From the NCBI RefSeq assembly GCF_003671765.1, contig NZ_QPIB01000009.1, positions 275,713 to 339,712 on the forward strand: a stretch of DNA of 64,000 bases. Direction: 5' to 3'. The stretch comes from Xenophilus sp. E41. GTDB taxonomy: Bacteria; Pseudomonadota; Gammaproteobacteria; Burkholderiales; Burkholderiaceae_C. Shown here piece after piece: positions 33,645-44,462 of the stretch; the first letter of the stretch is position 1; every line of letters starts with the position of its first letter. Both the position numbers and the translations under genes were made by a program. The notes below the pieces were generated by a model that made no database searches, was not told where the DNA came from, and worked only from the letters and a program-made list of their open reading frames with translations.

Positions 33645-34571
33645 TCAGTCCAGCTCGCCCCGCCGCGGCATGTCCGCCCCGCGGCGCGAACAGGTGATCG
33701 ACGCCGCCCGCGCCGCGAAGCGCAGCAGCGCCGCCATGCGTGGCACGTCCAGCGCATCGAGCGCCTCGGCCGACAGCCCGTCGTGTTCGGCCAGCCAGGC
33801 CAGGATGGCGGCCTGGAAGGTGTCGCCGGCGCCCACGGTGTCGATCACGTCCACCAGCAGCGACTGTGCTGTCGCGTGGCCGTTGCGGTTCCAGGCCTCG
33901 CTGCCTGTGGCGCCGCGCGTCACCACCACCAGGCGGGCGCCGGCGTCGAGCCAGCGCAGCGCGACGTGCGCCGGCGCTTCGTCGGGGTAGAGCAGGCCGA
34001 GGTCCTCGTCGCTCACCTTCACCACGTGCGCGAGCGCCGCCATCTCCTGCACCACCGTGCGCCAGCGCGTCAGGTCGGGCTCGACGTTCAGCCGCACGTT
34101 GGGGTCGTAGGCCACGAGCCGGCGCGTGCGTTCGCGTGCGGCCAGCGCGCGCAGGGCCGAGGCGACCGGCTCCACCACCATCGTGTACGAGCCGAACTGC
34201 AGCACGCGCGCCTCGTCGGGCAGGGCAGGCAGGGCCGCGGCGTCGAGCATGCGATCCGCCGCGCCGTGCCCGTGGAAGGCATAGCTGGGCACGCCGGTGT
34301 GGCCCACCGTGACCACGCTGAGCGTGGTCGGCGCGGCGCTGCGCACCACCAGCGCGGTGCCCACGCCCTCGTCGCGCAGCGCCTGCATCAGGCGCTCGCC
34401 CGGCACGTCCTGCGACAGGCCGGCGAGGAATTGCACCGGCTGCGCCAGCCGTGCCAGCCCCACCGCGACGTTGAACGGCGAGCCCCCCACGCGCGCGTCG
34501 AGCAGCAGCCCGGTGGGCGTGCTGTCGCGCACGTAGACATCCATCAGTGCTTCACCGCAGACAACGAACAT
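33645..34571 (-). CDS. PfkB-family sugar kinase, fructokinase-like
   Basis: A 308-residue ribokinase-fold kinase. It starts MFVVCGEALMDVYV, has VGGSPFNVAVGLARLAQPVQ (sugar site) and ends with the anion-hole/catalytic motif DTVGAGDTFQAAILAWL. It phosphorylates the sugar brought in by the ABC importer encoded just upstream. The order ROK-ATPase-permease-binding protein-kinase resembles the fructose frcRACBK set of rhizobia, so fructose is the best guess. Confidence 0.88.
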   Translation of the reverse strand: MFVVCGEALMDVYVRDSTPTGLLLDARVGGSPFNVAVGLARLAQPVQFLAGLSQDVPGERLMQALRDEGVGTALVVRSAAPTTLSVVTVGHTGVPSYAFHGHGAADRMLDAAALPALPDEARVLQFGSYTMVVEPVASALRALAARERTRRLVAYDPNVRLNVEPDLTRWRTVVQEMAALAHVVKVSDEDLGLLYPDEAPAHVALRWLDAGARLVVVTRGATGSEAWNRNGHATAQSLLVDVIDTVGAGDTFQAAILAWLAEHDGLSAEALDALDVPRMAALLRFAARAASITCSRRGADMPRRGELD

Positions 34572-34612
34572 CGCAAAGCTTCCTCGGTTGTAGGGCACTC
34601 CGGCCGCCGCCG

Positions 34613-34631
34613 GGCCGCCCCCAAGGCGGCC
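34613..34631 (-). terminator. GC-rich hairpin between binding-protein and kinase genes
   Basis: A perfect 7-bp stem, GGCCGCC (34613-34619) with GGCGGCC (34625-34631), encloses CCCAA. There is no T-run, so it is more likely an mRNA-stabilising or attenuating hairpin that keeps binding-protein message above kinase message, a common layout in ABC operons. Confidence 0.35.
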
Positions 34632-34648
34632 GGGCGTCAGGCGGTCGC

Positions 34649-35587
34649 TCAGCGTGGGGCCGACCAGCCCTTGTAGTCCTTCACGTTCGCGCGCGTGATC
34701 AGCGTGGAGGGCAGCAGCGTCATCTGCTGCGCGGGCTTCTTGCCGTTGAGCACGTCCTGGCCGATCTCCACCGCCTTCTGGGCGATCATGTACGGGTCCT
34801 GGCTGGCCGAGGCCTGCACCTGGGTGTCGCTCTTGAGCGCGGTCTCGATGTCGGGTGCGCCGTCCACCGAGGTGATGACGATGTTCTTGCGGTTCAGCTG
34901 CCGGGCCGCCAGGTCGGTGCCCACGGCCTGCGGGTCGTTGATGGCGAACACGGCGTCGATCTTGGGGAAGCGCGTGAGGTGGCTCTGCATCACGTTCAGG
35001 CCGCCTTCGCGCGAGCCCTTGCCGTCCTGGTCGTCCGACAGGATCTTGATGTCGGGCGACTTCTTCAGCACCGCCTTGCAGCCGTTCACCCGGTCGATCA
35101 CCGCCGACACCTGCGGGCCGTTCTGGATGATCACGTTGCCCTTGCCGCCGAGCTTCTCGACGATGTACTGGCAGGCGATCTCGCCGGCCTGCACGTTGTT
35201 GGTCTGCACCGTGGCGTCGGCACCGTTGGCGGCCACGTCCACGCCCACCACGGCGATGCCCGCCTTCTTGGCCTTCACCAGCGCGGGCTCGATGGCCTTC
35301 GCGTCGACGGCGTTCACCAGGATCAGGTTCACGCCGGCGGCGATGAAGCCGTCGATCTGCGAGAACTGCTTGTTCAGGTCGTAATCGGCCGACAGTGCCG
35401 TGACCTTGGCGTTCGGGTTGAGCTGCTTGACCTTGGCCTCGGCGCCCTTGGCGAGCGAGACGAAGAAGGGGTTGCCCAGCGAGCCGAGCGTGATGCCCAC
35501 GCTCTTGATCTGCTGCTGCGCCTGGGCCGCGAGCGGCAGGGCGGCGGAGGCGGCCGCGACGGCCAGGGCGACGAGGTGTTTGCGCAT
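34649..35587 (-). CDS. sugar ABC transporter substrate-binding protein (Peripla_BP_4)
   Basis: A 312-residue periplasmic protein. A signal peptide of about 23 residues (ends AALPLAAQA) is followed by KSVGITLGSLGNPFFVSLAKG and the ribose/fructose-type second domain with NAVDAKAIEPAL and NDPQAVGTDLA. It binds the sugar for the permease and ATPase encoded upstream. AAGGAGACATTCC precedes the ATG. Fructose or a related monosaccharide is likely from the operon layout; ribose cannot be excluded. Confidence 0.9.
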   Translation of the reverse strand: MRKHLVALAVAAASAALPLAAQAQQQIKSVGITLGSLGNPFFVSLAKGAEAKVKQLNPNAKVTALSADYDLNKQFSQIDGFIAAGVNLILVNAVDAKAIEPALVKAKKAGIAVVGVDVAANGADATVQTNNVQAGEIACQYIVEKLGGKGNVIIQNGPQVSAVIDRVNGCKAVLKKSPDIKILSDDQDGKGSREGGLNVMQSHLTRFPKIDAVFAINDPQAVGTDLAARQLNRKNIVITSVDGAPDIETALKSDTQVQASASQDPYMIAQKAVEIGQDVLNGKKPAQQMTLLPSTLITRANVKDYKGWSAPR

Positions 35588-35644
35588 GGAATGTCTCCTT
35601 GATTGAGCGCTGACGGGAAGAAAGAGCGAAGAGCCGTGGGACCT

Positions 35645-36643
35645 TCAGGTCCTTGCGGCGTCCTTGCGGCGGTAGCGGTCGAGGGCGACGGCGCCGATGA
35701 TCACCAGGCCCTTGACGATGTACTGCCAGATGTCCGAGACACCCATCAGGATCAGGCCGTTGGTCAGCACCGCGATGATCAGCGCGCCGATCAACGTGCC
35801 CAGGATGGAGCCGGTGCCGCCGACCAGGCTGGTGCCGCCGAGCACCACCGCGGCGATCGCGTCGAGCTCGTAGGACATGCCCAGCGTGGTGCCGTTGGCG
35901 GCATACAGCCGGGCCGAGGCCATCACCCCGCCCAGGCCCGACAGCAGGCCCGACATCGCATACACGAAGAGCAGCACGGCCCACACCTTGATGCCCGCCA
36001 GGCGCGCCGCTTCCGCATTGCCGCCGACCGAGTAGATGTTCAGGCCCAGCACCGTGCGGCGCAGGATGAACCACGAGATCGCGATGACGGCGAAGGCGAT
36101 GATCACCAGGCAGGGGATGCCGAACACATCGCCGTTGCCGATGAAGGCGAAGGGCAGCTGCGGGTTGAAGACCGTGTTGTCGCCCGCCAGCAGGCGTGCG
36201 ATGCCGCGCACCGCGGTGAGCGAGCCCAGCGTCACGATGAAGGGCTGCAGCTTCACGACCGAGATCAGGAACCCGTTGATCAGGCCGAACAGCAGCCCGC
36301 AGCCCATGCCGGCGGCGATGCCCAGCATGCCCAGCCCGGGGATGTTCGACACCAGCATCGCGGCCACCGCCGAGGCGGCCAGGATCGAGCCCACCGACAG
36401 GTCGATGCCTGCGGTGAGGATCACGAAGGTCATGCCGGCCGCCAGCACGATGTTGATCGAGGCCTGCTGCGTGATGATCGACAGGTTCTGCAGGCTCGCG
36501 AAGTTCTCGGTGCCCAGGCCGAAGCCCACGCACAGCAGCACCAGCACGGGCAGCATGCCCAGCGCGCGCAGGATTTCCTTGCCGCGCGCGCTGGCGGCGG
36601 GGCCGGCCACGGGGGCCGCGGATGCGGTGAGTGGGGCGTTCAT
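35645..36643 (-). CDS. sugar ABC transporter permease, RbsC/FrcC type
   Basis: A 332-residue inner-membrane protein with about nine helices. Family marks are LAAGMTFVILTAGIDLSVGS near residue 75 and GGNAEAARLAGIKVWAVLLF near residue 230, the coupling-helix region. AAGGAGACAGCCC precedes the start. It lies between the ATPase and binding-protein genes of the operon. Confidence 0.93.
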   Translation of the reverse strand: MNAPLTASAAPVAGPAASARGKEILRALGMLPVLVLLCVGFGLGTENFASLQNLSIITQQASINIVLAAGMTFVILTAGIDLSVGSILAASAVAAMLVSNIPGLGMLGIAAGMGCGLLFGLINGFLISVVKLQPFIVTLGSLTAVRGIARLLAGDNTVFNPQLPFAFIGNGDVFGIPCLVIIAFAVIAISWFILRRTVLGLNIYSVGGNAEAARLAGIKVWAVLLFVYAMSGLLSGLGGVMASARLYAANGTTLGMSYELDAIAAVVLGGTSLVGGTGSILGTLIGALIIAVLTNGLILMGVSDIWQYIVKGLVIIGAVALDRYRRKDAART

Positions 36644-36676
36644 GGGCTGTCTCCTTGATCGTTCGTTCGGGTTGTG

Positions 36677-38230
36677 TCAGTGCAGCGTCGGCGCCTCGCC
36701 GGGCACTGCGGCGCCGGTGGCCAGGGCGACGATGTTTTCCTGCGTGATGGGCAGGCCGCTCGCGCCGCCCACCTCGCCGACCAGTCGGCCTTCGCGCATC
36801 ACGACCACGCGGTCGCACACGCCGACGATCTCGGGCAGCTCGCTGGAGATCACCAGCACCGCCATGCCGCGCCGCGCCAGCTCGTCGATGAGGCGGTAGA
36901 TCTCGCTCTTGGCGCCGATGTCCACGCCGCGCGTCGGCTCGTCGAGGATCAGCACGCGCGGGCCCACCTCGAGCAGGCGCGCGAGCAGCACCTTCTGCTG
37001 GTTGCCGCCCGAGAGCGCGCCCACGTTCACGCGCGGCGAGGCCACGCGGATCGACAGCTGGCGGATGGCGTCGATGGCGCGCTTGACGGCGCGCCGGCCG
37101 TCCATCACGCCGCCGGCCCTGGCGTCGCGCGGGCTCACCATCACGTTGATGTTGTCGCGCACCGAGAGGTCGAGGAACAGGCCGTTGCCCTTGCGGTCCT
37201 CGGTGAGGTAGAGGATGCCGTTGCGGATCGCGTCGCCGGGCTGGCGGATGTCGAGCCGGGGGCCGGCGCCGTTGAGCCGCACCTCGCCGGCCGTGGCTGG
37301 GTCGGCGCCGAAGACCAGGCGCGCGAGTTCGGTGCGGCCGGCGCCGACCAGGCCGGCCAGGCCCAGCACCTCGCCCGCATGCAGCTGGAAGCTGCAGCCG
37401 CGCACGCGCCGGCCGTCGGCCAGGTCGGTCACGGTGAGTGCCACCTCGCCCGTGTGCTGGCCGTGGTGCTCCTTGCGGTAGAAGCCCGAGAGGTCGCGCC
37501 CGACCATCATCTTCACGAGCTTGTCGCGCGAGAGCTCAGCGCGGCTCAGGGTGCCGACGTAGGTGCCGTCGCGCAGCACCGTCACCTCGTCGGCGAGCTC
37601 GTCGATCTCGTCCATGCGGTGGCTGATGTAGAGGATGGCCAGGCCTTCGGCGCGCAGGCGACGGATCAGGGCGAACAGGCGCTCCGTCTCGTGCGTCGAC
37701 AGCGGCGTGGTCGGCTCGTCCATGACCAGGATGCGGCAGTCGAACTGCACCGCCCGGGCGATCTCCACCAGCTGGCGCTGTGCGATCGAGAGTTGCGCCA
37801 CCGTGGTGTTCGGACCGAAGTCGGCGCCCAGGCGTTCCAGCGTGCCGGCGCACGCGGCCGCCATGCCGGCGCGGTCGACCGTCGGGCCCTTGGTCATCGG
37901 CCGGCCCATGAAGATGTTCTCGGCCACGCTCAGGTTGGGCGCCAGGCTCAGCTCCTGATAGATCACCGACACGCCGAGGTTCTTGGCGTCGATCGGGCCC
38001 TCGATGCGGGCCGGCTGGCCGCCGATGCGGATCTCGGCGCCGGGGTCGGGCAGGTAGGCGCCCGAGAGGATCTTCATCAGCGTCGACTTGCCCGCGCCGT
38101 TCTCGCCCATCAGCGCGTGGATCTGCCCCGCACGGGCGGTGAGCTGCACGTCCCGCAGCGCCTTCACGCCCGGGAAGGTCTTGGAGATGCCGCGCAGCTC
38201 GAGCAGCGGCGCCGCCGGGGTTTTATGCAT
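36677..38230 (-). CDS. sugar ABC transporter ATPase, double-domain RbsA/FrcA type
   Basis: A 517-residue protein with two tandem ATPase domains. The first has Walker [15 protein letters not shown] near residue 42, signature [14 protein letters not shown] and Walker [15 protein letters not shown]. The second has a degenerate Walker A ([14 protein letters not shown]) and [15 protein letters not shown] with [13 protein letters not shown]. This is the monosaccharide-import (MSD) architecture. The start overlaps the ROK regulator stop by eight bases, so it is translated from the same message; longer upstream frames are shadows of the regulator. Confidence 0.94.
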
Positions 38231-39485
38231 GGAAGGACTCCCTGGGTCGGTGCGCGGGAACCCGCGCGGTGGAATGGCCGCGCAGCACGTCGGCGCGCGG
38301 CGAGAAGCTGAAGAACATCGGCAGGCTGGCCGCGCCGATCGCGCCGGCATCGGCCCCGAAGCTGCCGCGCAGCAGGCGCGGCACCTGGCGCGATTCGGGC
38401 GCGATGGCACGCAGGCCCTGTTCGGTGCGGGCGATCAGCGTGTCGATCAGGCCGGCGTCGATGTCGCAGTCGATCACCACCGCCGGCAGGTCGAGCACGG
38501 CGAGCGTGGCGCGCACGGCCGGCACCAGCGCGTCGACGCAGTCGTCGAGCCATTCGCGCACCTCGGGCCGACCCGAGGCGACCATCGCCTCCAGCTGCGG
38601 GTGCCCCACGACCGGCGTGCCGCCGTGGCGCAGGTGGCGCGTCAGCGCGTTGAGCGAGGCGCGCGAGAGCAGGATGTCCCACTTGCCGCCCTCGGGCGCG
38701 GGCGCCGAGGGCAGGGCGCTCGGCGGCACCGGCATCAGGCCCAGGTCGGCCGCATTGCCCGAGTGGCCGCGCAGGCTCTCGCCGCCCAGCACCGCGCCTG
38801 CCCCCAGCGCGGCACCGAGGTAGACGTACAGGAAATCGTTCTCCTTGCGGCCGACGCCGAAGAACAGCTCGGCGATGGCGGCCGCGCTGCCGTCGTTCTC
38901 CTGGAACACCGGCAGGTCCACCGCCTGGGCCAGGCGCTGGGCGAAATCGACCTCGTCCCAGATTCGGAAGTCGGCTTCCAGGTCGAGCTGCCGCAGCCAG
39001 CTGCCGAGGTTGTAGGGCTGCGCGAGGCCCACGCCGGCCAGCCGGCGGCGCTGCACGGGCGACAGCTCGGCCAGCACGCGCGCGATGTCGGCCTGCACCA
39101 GCGCCAGCGCCTCGTCGGGGTGGGGCAGCAGCTGGTCGTGCACTTCGCGGGCCAGGATGCGGCCCCCCAGGTCGATCAGCACGGTTTCGATGCTGGTGCG
39201 ATCCAGCCGCACGCCCACGCCGTAGGCGCCCTGCGGATTGATGCGGTACAGGCCGGCGGGCTGGCCCCGCTGGCCCTCGTGGCGGCGGCCGGCGCCCTCG
39301 ATCAGGCCCGACTCTTCCAGCGCCTGGACGATGCTGCCGGCCGCAGTGTTCGTCAGCTGCGCCCAGCGGGCCAGGTCGGCCTTCGACGCCTCGCCCGCAC
39401 GGCGCAGCCGCTGCAACAGCGAACGCTCGTTGTACTGGCGAAGGTTGACCGAGTTGGTGCCGCGGCCCGGACCGGTGGTTGACAA
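38223..39485 (-). CDS. ROK-family transcriptional regulator of the sugar operon
   Basis: A 420-residue protein. The N-terminal winged helix ([20 protein letters not shown], about residues 33-52) precedes a ROK sugar-kinase-like domain with the cofactor/sugar segments [20 protein letters not shown] and [10 protein letters not shown]. The canonical zinc-site Cys cluster of ROK proteins is not evident. The start codon is TTG at 39485, supported by AGGAG seven bases upstream; no ATG fits. As first gene of the operon with an operator-like palindrome 41 bases upstream, it likely represses its own operon until sugar binds, as FrcR does in rhizobia. Confidence 0.87.
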
Positions 39486-39545: not shown

Positions 39546-39772
39546 AGGGGGTCGACCGATACGCTCAATCGGGGGTTTTCCCGGAGCACTCGAAGGGGCT
39601 CCGAAGCCGCGGTTCCGAGCTGTTCGTTCCGGAAACGGGCGTGCGCAGCCAGCCGTGACCCAGCCGGAGCGCATGTCACTGGCGCCGGGGCGCTACGAGC
39701 CGGTGCTGGTGCCGGGCGCGTCGGGCAGGCCGGCGTGGCGGCCGCTCGCCGGATCGCCCGGGCGACGGCCGC
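39546..39772. other. intergenic region
   Basis: No believable gene or site is visible between the sugar-operon promoter and the end of the aminotransferase gene. Frames here lack family-like sequence. Confidence 0.5.
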
Positions 39773-40978
39773 TCAGGGCGTCTCGCCGAAAAAGTGCATG
39801 GCGGCGTCCACGCCGCTGCCCGCCAGTGCCACGCCCTGGAGCCGCAACCCCATCTCCACCCCCCGCGACCATGGCGATCAGGGTAAGGTCGTTGCTGTCG
39901 CCCAGATGCCCCATGCGGAACATGCGGCCCTTGAGCTTGCCGAGGCCCGTGCCCAGGGACAGGTCGAAGCGGGCATGGATCAGGCGGCGCAACGCGTCCG
40001 CGTCCACGCCCGCCGGCGTGATCACGCCGGTCAACACCGGCGAGTGGCAGCGCGCGTCGGCGCATTGGATGGGAAGTCCCCAGGCGTCGACGGCTGCCCG
40101 CACGCCCGCGGCCCATCGCTGGTGGCGTGCGAACACGCGCTCCAGGCCCTCGGCCTCCAGCATCTCGATGGCCTCGGCCAATGCGTAGAGCAGGTTGGTG
40201 TTGGGCGTGGACGGCCAGTAGCCGGTGGCGTTCATTGCCACGATCTCTTCCCAGTCCCAGTACGCGCGCGGCAGGCGGGCGGTGCGCGAGGCCGTCAGTG
40301 CCTTCTCCGACAGGGCATTGAAGCTGATGCCCGGTGGCAGCATCAGGCCCTTCTGCGAGCCGCTCACCGTGACGTCGACACCCCACTCGTCGTGCCGGTA
40401 GTCGGCGCAGGCCAGGCCCGAGATGGTGTCGACGATCAGCAGTGCGGGATGGCCCGCGGCATCGATGGCATCGCGCACCGCGCGGATGTCGGAGGTCACG
40501 CCGGTCGAGGTCTCGTTGTGCACCACGCACACCGCGCGGATGTCGCCGCGGGTGTCCGCGCGCAGCCGGGCCTCGATGTGGTCGGCATCGACCCCGTGGC
40601 GCCAGTGGCCGGCCTCCGGCAGCAGTGGATCGGCGTGGGGCGTGGCGACCAATTCGGCATCCAGGCCGAGGCGGGTGGCCACAGCGACGCGAAATGCCCG
40701 GTCTCGTACATCAGCACCTTGTCGCCCGCACTGAGCGTGTTGCACAGCGCCGCCTCCCAGGCGCCCGTGCCCGAGGCCGGGTAGATGACGACCGGCTGCC
40801 GGGTCCTGAAGATCCGCTGCATGCCCTCGATCACCTGGCGGCCCAGCCGGGCGAACTCGGGGCCGCGGTGGTCGATCGTCGGCAGGCTCATCGCGCGCAG
40901 CAGCCGGTCGGGCACCGGGCTCGGCCCGGGGATCTGCAGGAAGTGGTGGCCGGTGGGGTGTGAATCGAGGGTGAGCAT
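39773..40978 (-). pseudogene. class V aminotransferase (serine/alanine-glyoxylate type), two frameshifts
   Basis: Read with two corrections this is a 401-residue PLP enzyme of the SGAT/AGXT family. The start has FLQIPGPSPVPDRLLRAM and PTIDHRGPEFARLG, and the PLP lysine is in VSGSQKGLMLPPG. The tail is AGVEMGLRLQG, ending HFFGETP. The first frame runs from 40978 to about 40679 (after TGG of FASLW), where at least one base is missing. The middle frame runs to about 39860, where a run of six C (39859-39864) has one base too many; the last frame then ends at 39773. The net shift is zero. Either sequencing error or a decayed gene. It sits in one group with the FAD oxidoreductase and TctC genes. 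Confidence 0.85.
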
Positions 40979-41023: not shown

Positions 41024-42427
41024 TCAGCGCGTCATGCGACGCGACAGCGTCTCTTGCGGCAGGTAGGCGCCGGCCTCGCGCAGGCGCGTCACCAGCGCTT
41101 CCGTGTCGAGGTCGCAGGCGGGCTGCCCGGTGGCGAGCGACTGCGCGGCCGCGGTGGCGGCGGCCTGGCCCATCATGTACGCGGCCGACTGCGCCCGGAT
41201 CGATCCGTGCACCTTGGTGTCGCTCGAATGGCAGCGGCCCGCGACCCAGAGGTTCTGCGACCCCCTGGGCACCAGGATGCTGTAGGGGATCCCGACGCTG
41301 CCGCCAAGCCCGAGGTTGTCCTTGCCGTGGAAGTCCTGCAGGAAACGCTCGTACTCCGCCCTGGAGGTGTTGGTCGGATGCACGTCGGTCGGCCGGTTGT
41401 AGACGGCGATCTGGTCCGGAAACTGCCGGCGCCGACGGAAGTCCTCGATGGTCAGTTCGAACTCGCCGACGATGCGGCGCGAGTCCCGCACGCCCATCAC
41501 CGGGGCGGTGCTCAGCAGCTCGATCTCTTCGCACCCCGGCACGTAGCGGCGGTAGAACTCGGCGTACTCCACCGCGAGCTTGCGGCCGTGCACCATGCCG
41601 TCGCTCAGGCTGCGAACCGACAGCGGGTCGAGCCCGAACACGTGGCCCGCGTTCAGCGTGGCGCTGCGCGGGCCGATCTTGTTCATGCCCGGAAAGAAGC
41701 GGTCTTCCTGCGAGAAGAAGCCGTCCTCGATGCCCTGCGGCACCAGCTCCTTGCGCACGCGTTCCTTGACCGCATCCACGCCGCGCCAGTCCTCCCCGTA
41801 GGCGGAGTCGTCCCAGTTCATCGCGCCGACGAGCGAACACAGCGTGGACGGGGCGACCGAATCGGTGTCGCGCAGCACCACCTTGCATTGCGCGCCGGTC
41901 ATGGCCGCCAGCGCGGCGTCGCCCGTGGCGTCGACGAAGGCCCGGGCCCGGACGTACTCCAGGCCTTCCACGCTGGACAGGATCACGCCCTCGACCCGGC
42001 CGTCGACGAACTCCGCGTCGGCCACGCGTGAGAAGAAGCGCAGCTCCACCCCGGCCTGGATCGCGAAGTCGTCCAGGATGCGCTTGAGCGCCTCCGGCTT
42101 GAACGGCACCCACCGGTTGAGCTGCGCATTCAGGAACTCGGGCACCACGTGCGGGCCGAAGGCCTTCTCCTTCCACATGCGCTCCAGCAGCTCCCGCATG
42201 AAGCCGCCGGCCAGCATGCGTTCGCCGTCCGACACGGGCCCGAAGGACGCGACCAGGCCCGAGGTGCCCATGCCGCCCAGGCAGCCGGTGGCTTCGACCA
42301 GGAGGGTGCGCAGGCCCAGGCGCGCGCCGCAGATGGCGGCCGCGCTGCCGGCGGGGCCGCCGCCTGCCACCACCAGGTCGTAGATGGCGCCAGCGCGGAT
42401 GCTTCGTTGGTAGCTGAATGTGCTCAT
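41024..42427 (-). CDS. FAD-dependent oxidoreductase (FAD_oxidored family)
   Basis: A 467-residue flavoprotein. The N-terminal Rossmann motif is YDLVVAGGGPAGSAAAICGA, followed by LLVEATGCLGGMGTSGLV, which marks the PF12831-type family. ARAFVDATGDAALAAMTGAQ and the C-terminal NLWVAGRCHSSDTKVHGSIR complete the FAD site. Members oxidise hydroxy- or amino-acid-like substrates or act on unsaturated acids. It lies 45 bases upstream of the aminotransferase and 34 bases downstream of a TctC-type binding protein, so uptake, oxidation and transamination of one organic acid or amine is plausible. The start at 42427 (MSTFSY) was chosen over 42448. Confidence 0.88.
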   Translation of the reverse strand: MSTFSYQRSIRAGAIYDLVVAGGGPAGSAAAICGARLGLRTLLVEATGCLGGMGTSGLVASFGPVSDGERMLAGGFMRELLERMWKEKAFGPHVVPEFLNAQLNRWVPFKPEALKRILDDFAIQAGVELRFFSRVADAEFVDGRVEGVILSSVEGLEYVRARAFVDATGDAALAAMTGAQCKVVLRDTDSVAPSTLCSLVGAMNWDDSAYGEDWRGVDAVKERVRKELVPQGIEDGFFSQEDRFFPGMNKIGPRSATLNAGHVFGLDPLSVRSLSDGMVHGRKLAVEYAEFYRRYVPGCEEIELLSTAPVMGVRDSRRIVGEFELTIEDFRRRRQFPDQIAVYNRPTDVHPTNTSRAEYERFLQDFHGKDNLGLGGSVGIPYSILVPRGSQNLWVAGRCHSSDTKVHGSIRAQSAAYMMGQAAATAAAQSLATGQPACDLDTEALVTRLREAGAYLPQETLSRRMTR

Positions 42428-42461
42428 GGATCGGGGTTGCGGAAACAAGGGGGCGTGGCGG

Positions 42462-43448
42462 CTACTTCGCGGACACGGGCTGCGTGACCCTGGCGAAGCG
42501 CTGGATCTCGTCGCGGATGAAACGGCCGAATTCCTGCGGCGGCTGGGTCGCCACTTCGAACCCCATGTCGGCCATCAGGCGGGCGACCTGCTCGTCCTTC
42601 AGCAGCGCCACGACGTCCGAGGAGATCTTCCCGGCCACCGCGGATGGAATGCCGGCGGGGCCGCACAGCCCCGCCCAGTTGACGACCTCGTAGCCGGGGT
42701 AGGTCTCGGCGATGGCCGGCCAGTCGGGGTAGAGCGGGCTTCTCCTGGCGCTGGTCACGCCCAGCACCTTGAGCTGTCCTGCCTTGACGAAGGGCTCGGC
42801 CGAGCTGGCCACGGCAAAGCCCATCGGAATCAGGCCGCCCACCATGTCGGTGTACAGCTTGGCGGCGCCGTTGTAGGGCACGTGCAGCAGGTCGATGCCC
42901 GCTGCGTTGCACAGCAGTTCTCCGGCGAGCTGCGCCGCCGTACCGATGCCGTTCGATCCGAACGAGAGCTTGCCCGGCTGGCTCTTCGCCAGCGCGACCA
43001 GTTCCCGGATGTCGTTGGCCGGCAGCGACCTGGCGCCCACGAGCACCGTGGTGTAGTAGCCCAGCCGCGCCAGCGGGGTGAAGTCCTTGACGGCGTCGTA
43101 GGGCAGGTCGTTGCGCTGCACGGCGTTGATGCTCAGCGAGCTGCCCAGCAGGCCGAAAGTGTGGCCGTCGGGATTGGCGCGGGCCAGCGCCGTGCTGCCG
43201 ATCACCACGCCACCGCCCGGCCGGTTCTCGACGATGACCGAACGCTTCCATTGCGCCTCCAGGCGCTCGGCCAGCACGCGCGCCAGCCGGTCCGCGGCAC
43301 CGCCGGCGGTCTGGGGCACGATCATGTGCACGGTTCGTCCGGGGTAGCTCTGCCCCCATGCAGTCAGGGCCGGCGCGAGGCCTGCCAGCCCCAGGGCCTG
43401 CAGGGCCAGCCGGCGCGATGGCAGCGTCGCGCGACAGCTCGCTTTCAT
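42462..43448 (-). CDS. Bug/TctC family periplasmic solute-binding protein
   Basis: A 328-residue tripartite-tricarboxylate-type binding protein. It has a twin-Arg-containing signal region (SRRLALQALGLAGLAPALTA), then YPGRTVHMIVPQTAGGAADR and the family segment VIVENRPGGGVVIGSTALAR. Bug proteins are greatly expanded in Burkholderiales and bind carboxylates or small amides; no TctAB membrane partner is in the window. AAGGAGACATCC precedes the ATG. It is the first gene of the leftward group under the divergent LysR regulator. Confidence 0.92.
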   Translation of the reverse strand: MKASCRATLPSRRLALQALGLAGLAPALTAWGQSYPGRTVHMIVPQTAGGAADRLARVLAERLEAQWKRSVIVENRPGGGVVIGSTALARANPDGHTFGLLGSSLSINAVQRNDLPYDAVKDFTPLARLGYYTTVLVGARSLPANDIRELVALAKSQPGKLSFGSNGIGTAAQLAGELLCNAAGIDLLHVPYNGAAKLYTDMVGGLIPMGFAVASSAEPFVKAGQLKVLGVTSARRSPLYPDWPAIAETYPGYEVVNWAGLCGPAGIPSAVAGKISSDVVALLKDEQVARLMADMGFEVATQPPQEFGRFIRDEIQRFARVTQPVSAK

Positions 43449-43571: not shown

Positions 43572-44462
43572 ATGAACCTGAGGCACATGGAAGTCTTCCG
43601 GGCCGTGATGCTCACCGGCAGCATCAGCGGCGCGGCGGAAATCCTGCACGTCTCCCAACCGGCCGTGAGCAAGCTGCTGGCCCATGCCGCGCGGCAGAGC
43701 CAGCTGGTCCTGTTCGAGCGCATCAAGGGGCGGCTGGTGCCCACGCCCGAGGCGCAGCAGCTGTACGAGGAGGTGGAGAAGCTCTGGCGAGGCGTCGAGC
43801 GCGTGCGCGACGTCACGCGTGGCCTGGGGGATCCGAACTCAGGCGTGTTGCGGCTCGCCGTCTCCGCGAGCCTGGGCACGCACCTGGTGCCGCGGGCCGT
43901 CGCCTTGCTCTACGAGCGACACGAGCACGTCAAGGTCAGCATGGAGATCCTGATCGCGCCCATCATGGTGGAGGCGCTGCTCGACCAGAGCGCACATCTG
44001 GGCATCGCCATGCAGCCCATCGACCACCCCAACCTGTCGGCGGTGCGCAGCTACGCCTGCGGCCTCGCGTGCGTGATGCGCAAGGACCACCGCCTGGCCG
44101 CGAAGCGCGAGATCGTTGCGCGCGACCTCGGCGGCGAACGGGTCATTTCCTCGCCGGCCGCCACGCCTTACGGCCAGAGCCTGCGCCGTGCCTACGGGGC
44201 CGCGGCGCGCTCCGCCAAGCTCGACATCGAGGTGCGCTCGGCAGCCAGTGCCTGCTGGTTCGCGCAGGCGGGGGCGGGCATCGCGGTCGTCGACCGCGCC
44301 GCGGTGGCCGGACATTCCTTTGGCGACCTGGTGGTGCGGCCGTTCCGGTGCAAGGAGTCGCTCGAAGTGCGCATCCTGCGCAATGCGTACCGGCCTCTGT
44401 CCGTGCTGCAGCGGAGCTTCTGCGATGCCTTCGAACAGGCCTGGTCGGAAAGCCTGGGCTAG
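43572..44462 (+). CDS. LysR-family transcriptional regulator
   Basis: A 296-residue LTTR. The N-terminal helix-turn-helix is FRAVMLTGSISGAAEILHVS followed by QPAVSKLLAHA, and a two-lobed effector domain follows. It is divergent from the TctC/FAD oxidoreductase/aminotransferase group and most likely activates it in response to the substrate. The start at 43572 is chosen for MNLRHMEVFRAV, the standard LysR opening. Confidence 0.93.
   Translation: MNLRHMEVFRAVMLTGSISGAAEILHVSQPAVSKLLAHAARQSQLVLFERIKGRLVPTPEAQQLYEEVEKLWRGVERVRDVTRGLGDPNSGVLRLAVSASLGTHLVPRAVALLYERHEHVKVSMEILIAPIMVEALLDQSAHLGIAMQPIDHPNLSAVRSYACGLACVMRKDHRLAAKREIVARDLGGERVISSPAATPYGQSLRRAYGAAARSAKLDIEVRSAASACWFAQAGAGIAVVDRAAVAGHSFGDLVVRPFRCKESLEVRILRNAYRPLSVLQRSFCDAFEQAWSESLG

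Follow-up and report, generated by a model that had tools for sequence, protein, structure and literature searches.

A class V aminotransferase gene on the minus strand of the window (the whole 64,000-nucleotide stretch of Xenophilus sp. E41 DNA analysed here) is broken by two indels. Very probably this is a recent pseudogenisation in the strain, within an eroding accessory locus. It looks like an ordinary young pseudogene in early gene decay. The 402 triplets between the ATG and the TGA hold no single open frame; instead, one family protein is spread over three successive frames. The preliminary description had read the gene in this way, from the ATG through the C6 run at 39859-39864 to the TGA, and three-frame translation agrees. 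The gene comprises the following features.

40978 (ATG) to 39775-39773 (TGA), minus strand: class V aminotransferase gene, broken
40679 to 40978, minus strand: N-terminal part in the native frame, 100 codons from the ATG; translation 95-96% identical to the orthologues in relatives G008 and G013 over 100-101 residues
40678 to 40684, minus strand: break 1, ten bases missing relative to orthologues in a MAFFT alignment
39861 to 40682, minus strand: middle part in the second frame, with the SQKG lysine motif; 94% identity to the closest relatives
40496 to 40498, minus strand: premature TGA reached from the ATG past break 1
40350 to 40352, minus strand: AAG codon of the presumed PLP-binding lysine in the SQKG motif, aligned with GSQKAL of 6pk1
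39859 to 39864, minus strand: break 2, a six-base G run (as read on the minus strand), one base longer than in all ten aligned orthologues
39773 to 39860, minus strand: C-terminal part with the original frame restored, to the native TGA, from alignment and translation

The native N-terminal frame ends in ETGHFASLW, the middle frame runs from VATRLGLDAE to LIAMVA, and the last frame, of about 29 codons, translates to GVEMGLRLQGVALAGSGVDAAMHFFGETP and then stops. Both breaks are seen when the gene is aligned by MAFFT to the ten orthologues L010-L019, of which five belong to the same genus, four to the same family and one to the same order. Break 1 is a ten-base gap between 40683 and 40682, found in the window copy only; the bases are present in 10 of 10 orthologues, which bears out an earlier suspicion that about ten bases, rather than one, had been lost. 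Its exact position is ambiguous inside a TGG repeat. Break 2, an extra base in a G/C run, is also confined to the window copy. The net change is -9 bases (three codons), leaving both gene ends in the same frame, as had been proposed. Shifts shared with orthologues would have pointed to a wrong gene model, a reading refuted by the absence of both from every aligned orthologue. A codon-usage gene finder, trained on the window genome and one relative, splits the gene unprompted into 40957-40682 and 40682-39864 and leaves the short last frame uncalled.

In the relatives nearest to the window, a short TGG repeat lies at the ends of the ten-base stretch, which suggests that the deletion probably arose by replication slippage between the repeats. 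This deletion and a one-base gain in the homopolymer at break 2 leave the stretch between them, about 272 codons that include the lysine motif, in the wrong frame. Translation from the ATG gives 160 residues, 100 native and 60 foreign, and stops at 40496, ahead of the SQKG motif; the ATG therefore opens no continuous frame that contains this lysine, presumably the PLP-binding residue as in the rest of the family. Because the product would end short of the lysine, no active enzyme is expected from it.

The assignment to class V aminotransferases, made earlier from the letters alone, is upheld by profile searches. Against a PF00266 cut-off of 21.5 bits, the middle piece scores 42.7 and the intact G013 orthologue 56.3, while the N-terminal piece of 100 residues, searched by itself, matches no Pfam family. 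The best NCBIfam match of the intact orthologue is BhcA (NF045640), an L-aspartate--glyoxylate aminotransferase, yet its 425.4 bits (E 1.9e-127) lie under the curated cut-off of 650, so the gene is not placed in BhcA; a Variovorax orthologue falls short as well, at 448 bits. The best match among solved structures is 6pk1, named a serine--glyoxylate aminotransferase, at 327 bits for the intact orthologue and 223 bits for the middle piece. 6pk1 and the window gene have the GSQK motif in common, but the window gene is broken twice. On these matches the ancestral enzyme is filed as a probable class V aminotransferase (fold-type I, PLP) of the serine/alanine/aspartate-glyoxylate branch.

Intact copies are the rule among relatives that carry the gene. 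It is found in 5 of 13 other same-genus genomes and is unbroken in all five over residues 1-403 or 1-404; the other eight have no match at E 1e-20, and the gene is therefore dispensable. Outside the genus, among 80 named loci that are the best 80 of at least 587, 79 hold one full-length match in one frame and the remaining one is cut by a contig start, where full-length means at least residues 25 to 375, so that breaks within the final 29 residues would escape. These loci, 68-80% identical, belong to Variovorax, Acidovorax, Delftia, Hydrogenophaga and others. Compensation by a close paralogue was also considered, and no such paralogue is seen in the window genome, where the next match to the middle piece is 27% identical.

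The aminotransferase is the last gene of an operon whose other members are intact. Its neighbours are as follows.

43572 to 44459, plus strand: divergent LysR-type regulator (PF03466 and PF00126)
42462 to 43448, minus strand: TctC-type tripartite tricarboxylate receptor (PF03401, 197 bits), first gene of the operon, intact, with an inferred start
41024 to 42448, minus strand: FAD-dependent oxidoreductase (PF12831, 302 bits), upstream in the same operon, intact
39615 to 39750, plus strand: 3'-end remnant of a family III CoA-transferase gene, with about 40 residues left at 39628-39750 at 73% identity
39596 to 39615: junction at which about 10.2 kb of the relatives' sequence is absent, placed from flank matches and the gene block in G008 and G013
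38223 to 39485, minus strand: ROK-family regulator (PF00480, 74 bits), on the far side of the junction, intact

The same-strand order TctC, FAD oxidoreductase, aminotransferase is shared by the window and relatives G002, G003, G007, G008 and G013. The divergent LysR gene precedes the operon in the window and in four of these relatives; the stretch examined in G003 ends before that point. The oxidoreductase occurs at 92% identity or more in 6 of 14 same-genus genomes, the same six as the aminotransferase. Outside the genus (L039-L118), at least 61 of 80 loci have a YdiJ/GlcD-like FAD and iron-sulfur dehydrogenase nearby, and at least 49 of 80 have an FCD/GntR regulator. Both counts are minima, since even the aminotransferase was picked up by the gene finder in only 67 of 80. 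In the clustering used, the window-type oxidoreductase is found in none of these 80 loci. The dehydrogenase and FCD/GntR neighbours outside the genus hint at a 2-hydroxy-acid pathway. Beyond the junction, the minus-strand stretch 33645-39485 is a sugar-uptake locus. It holds the ROK regulator, ribose-type ABC transporter genes and, by eye, a PfkB-like kinase, all apparently intact, and the NCBIfam matches of the transporter genes are below curated cut-offs.

In G008, the aminotransferase is separated from the ROK regulator gene by ten predicted genes. The nine that were scanned encode two alpha/beta hydrolases, a GNAT acetyltransferase, a short-chain dehydrogenase, a second TctC, an AraC regulator, an acetoacetate decarboxylase, a 3-hydroxyacyl-CoA dehydrogenase and a CoA-transferase. 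All ten recur in the same order in G013, which has three more beside the aminotransferase, and G002 has nine of the ten before its contig ends. Measured by G008, 10,168 bases are missing at the window's junction. Acetoacetate decarboxylase has no match in the window genome, and CoA-transferase has, beyond the remnant tail, only distant ones there (at most 37% identity). Since dS to the window is lower for G002 and G013 (0.28-0.29) than for the more distant G008 (0.38), the simplest reading of these sequences is that the block was lost in the window's lineage. With about 10.2 kb directly downstream gone, the locus, accessory in the genus, would already have been eroding, and a lack of benefit may be the reason for the gene loss. 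The remnant is 79% identical (135 of 170 aligned columns), less than the 89.7% of the adjoining 4,869-base match; this lower identity may mean that the block was lost first and the aminotransferase broken later.

The age of the breaks can be judged from selection on the remaining sequence. The dN/dS of the window copy against five relatives is 0.118-0.130, within the 0.077-0.144 of the ten pairs among those relatives, so the relaxed selection of a pseudogene is not seen. The window copy differs from G013 at 26 residues, every one of them at a position that is variable among orthologues. With the window copy evolving as intact copies do, the breaks are either young or not real: unrelaxed dN/dS is expected from very recent breaks and equally from sequencing errors. 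Decay is shown by the indels alone, and an error would look alike.

Sequencing or assembly error is the main alternative, in which poor local coverage produced both indels and the strain itself carries an unbroken gene. Several observations fit it: break 2 changes a six-base G/C run by a single base, and homopolymers are classic error sites; the gene is otherwise under normal constraint; and the assembly is a draft in 47 contigs. According to PMC1852416, sequencing errors accounted for many of the interrupted genes in one deposited genome. A survey of frame breaks speaks against such an origin here. G008 genes called by codon usage served as queries against the first 516 kb of the contig that holds the window, and at thresholds of at least 70% identity and at least 70% coverage, orthologues were found for 325 of 444 predicted genes (114,821 codons). 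Of the 325, only the aminotransferase has its frame broken internally. Two further shifts and a stop were also flagged, but at 5' ends and ahead of the likely start codons as assigned in this analysis. In the reverse direction, 320 of 422 genes have a G008 orthologue and none of the 320 is broken. The assembly is thus not generally error-prone in the 516 kb examined, and were indels random, the chance of a second one in the same 405-codon gene would be about 0.35% (405/114,821).

The survey is less sensitive at gene ends. Queries from G008 and G013 detect break 1 and miss break 2, which only the G003 query detects; sensitivity is therefore weak within about 30-40 codons of gene ends, and a few gene-end breaks elsewhere in the surveyed DNA may have gone unseen. 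Two other survey designs gave way to the codon-usage gene finder: with every long ORF as a query, overlapping ORFs in other frames of this GC-rich DNA raised dozens of signals, and filtering by G+C discarded true genes. Error is also at odds with break 1, a loss of ten bases at a short repeat that is unlike usual base-call errors, and with the neighbouring 10.2-kb loss, which indicates that the locus is really changing. Sequencing error and early decay had been left side by side in the preliminary description; the lack of other internal breaks among the 325 compared genes, the repeat-site loss and the adjacent block loss now favour decay, and error is an improbable, if appreciable, alternative. 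That the gene still functions, through recoding, transcript slippage at the G run or two re-initiated fragments that together form an active enzyme, would account for a dN/dS that is not relaxed and draws on the in-frame gene ends left by the net -9 and on a GTG codon that opens the middle frame right at break 1, but it is highly implausible: slippage at break 2, nearly 820 bases away, cannot bypass the ten-base loss, no orthologue seen has such an arrangement, and a ribosome-binding site upstream of the GTG is not evident by eye.

The probable recent pseudogenisation has consequences mainly for annotation, beyond which the case has little significance: the record should show one probable pseudogene here instead of two or three genes, and in this strain no aminotransferase should be counted among the operon's products. 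The locus offers a snapshot of stepwise gene loss, with a block deletion beside a freshly broken coding sequence. A parallel exists in Salmonella, where, according to PMC2916853, young pseudogenes are often removed by deletion. The window gene differs from the young bacterial pseudogenes of that study in being a single case from one strain; it resembles them as a gene that was probably inactivated recently and has intact relatives.
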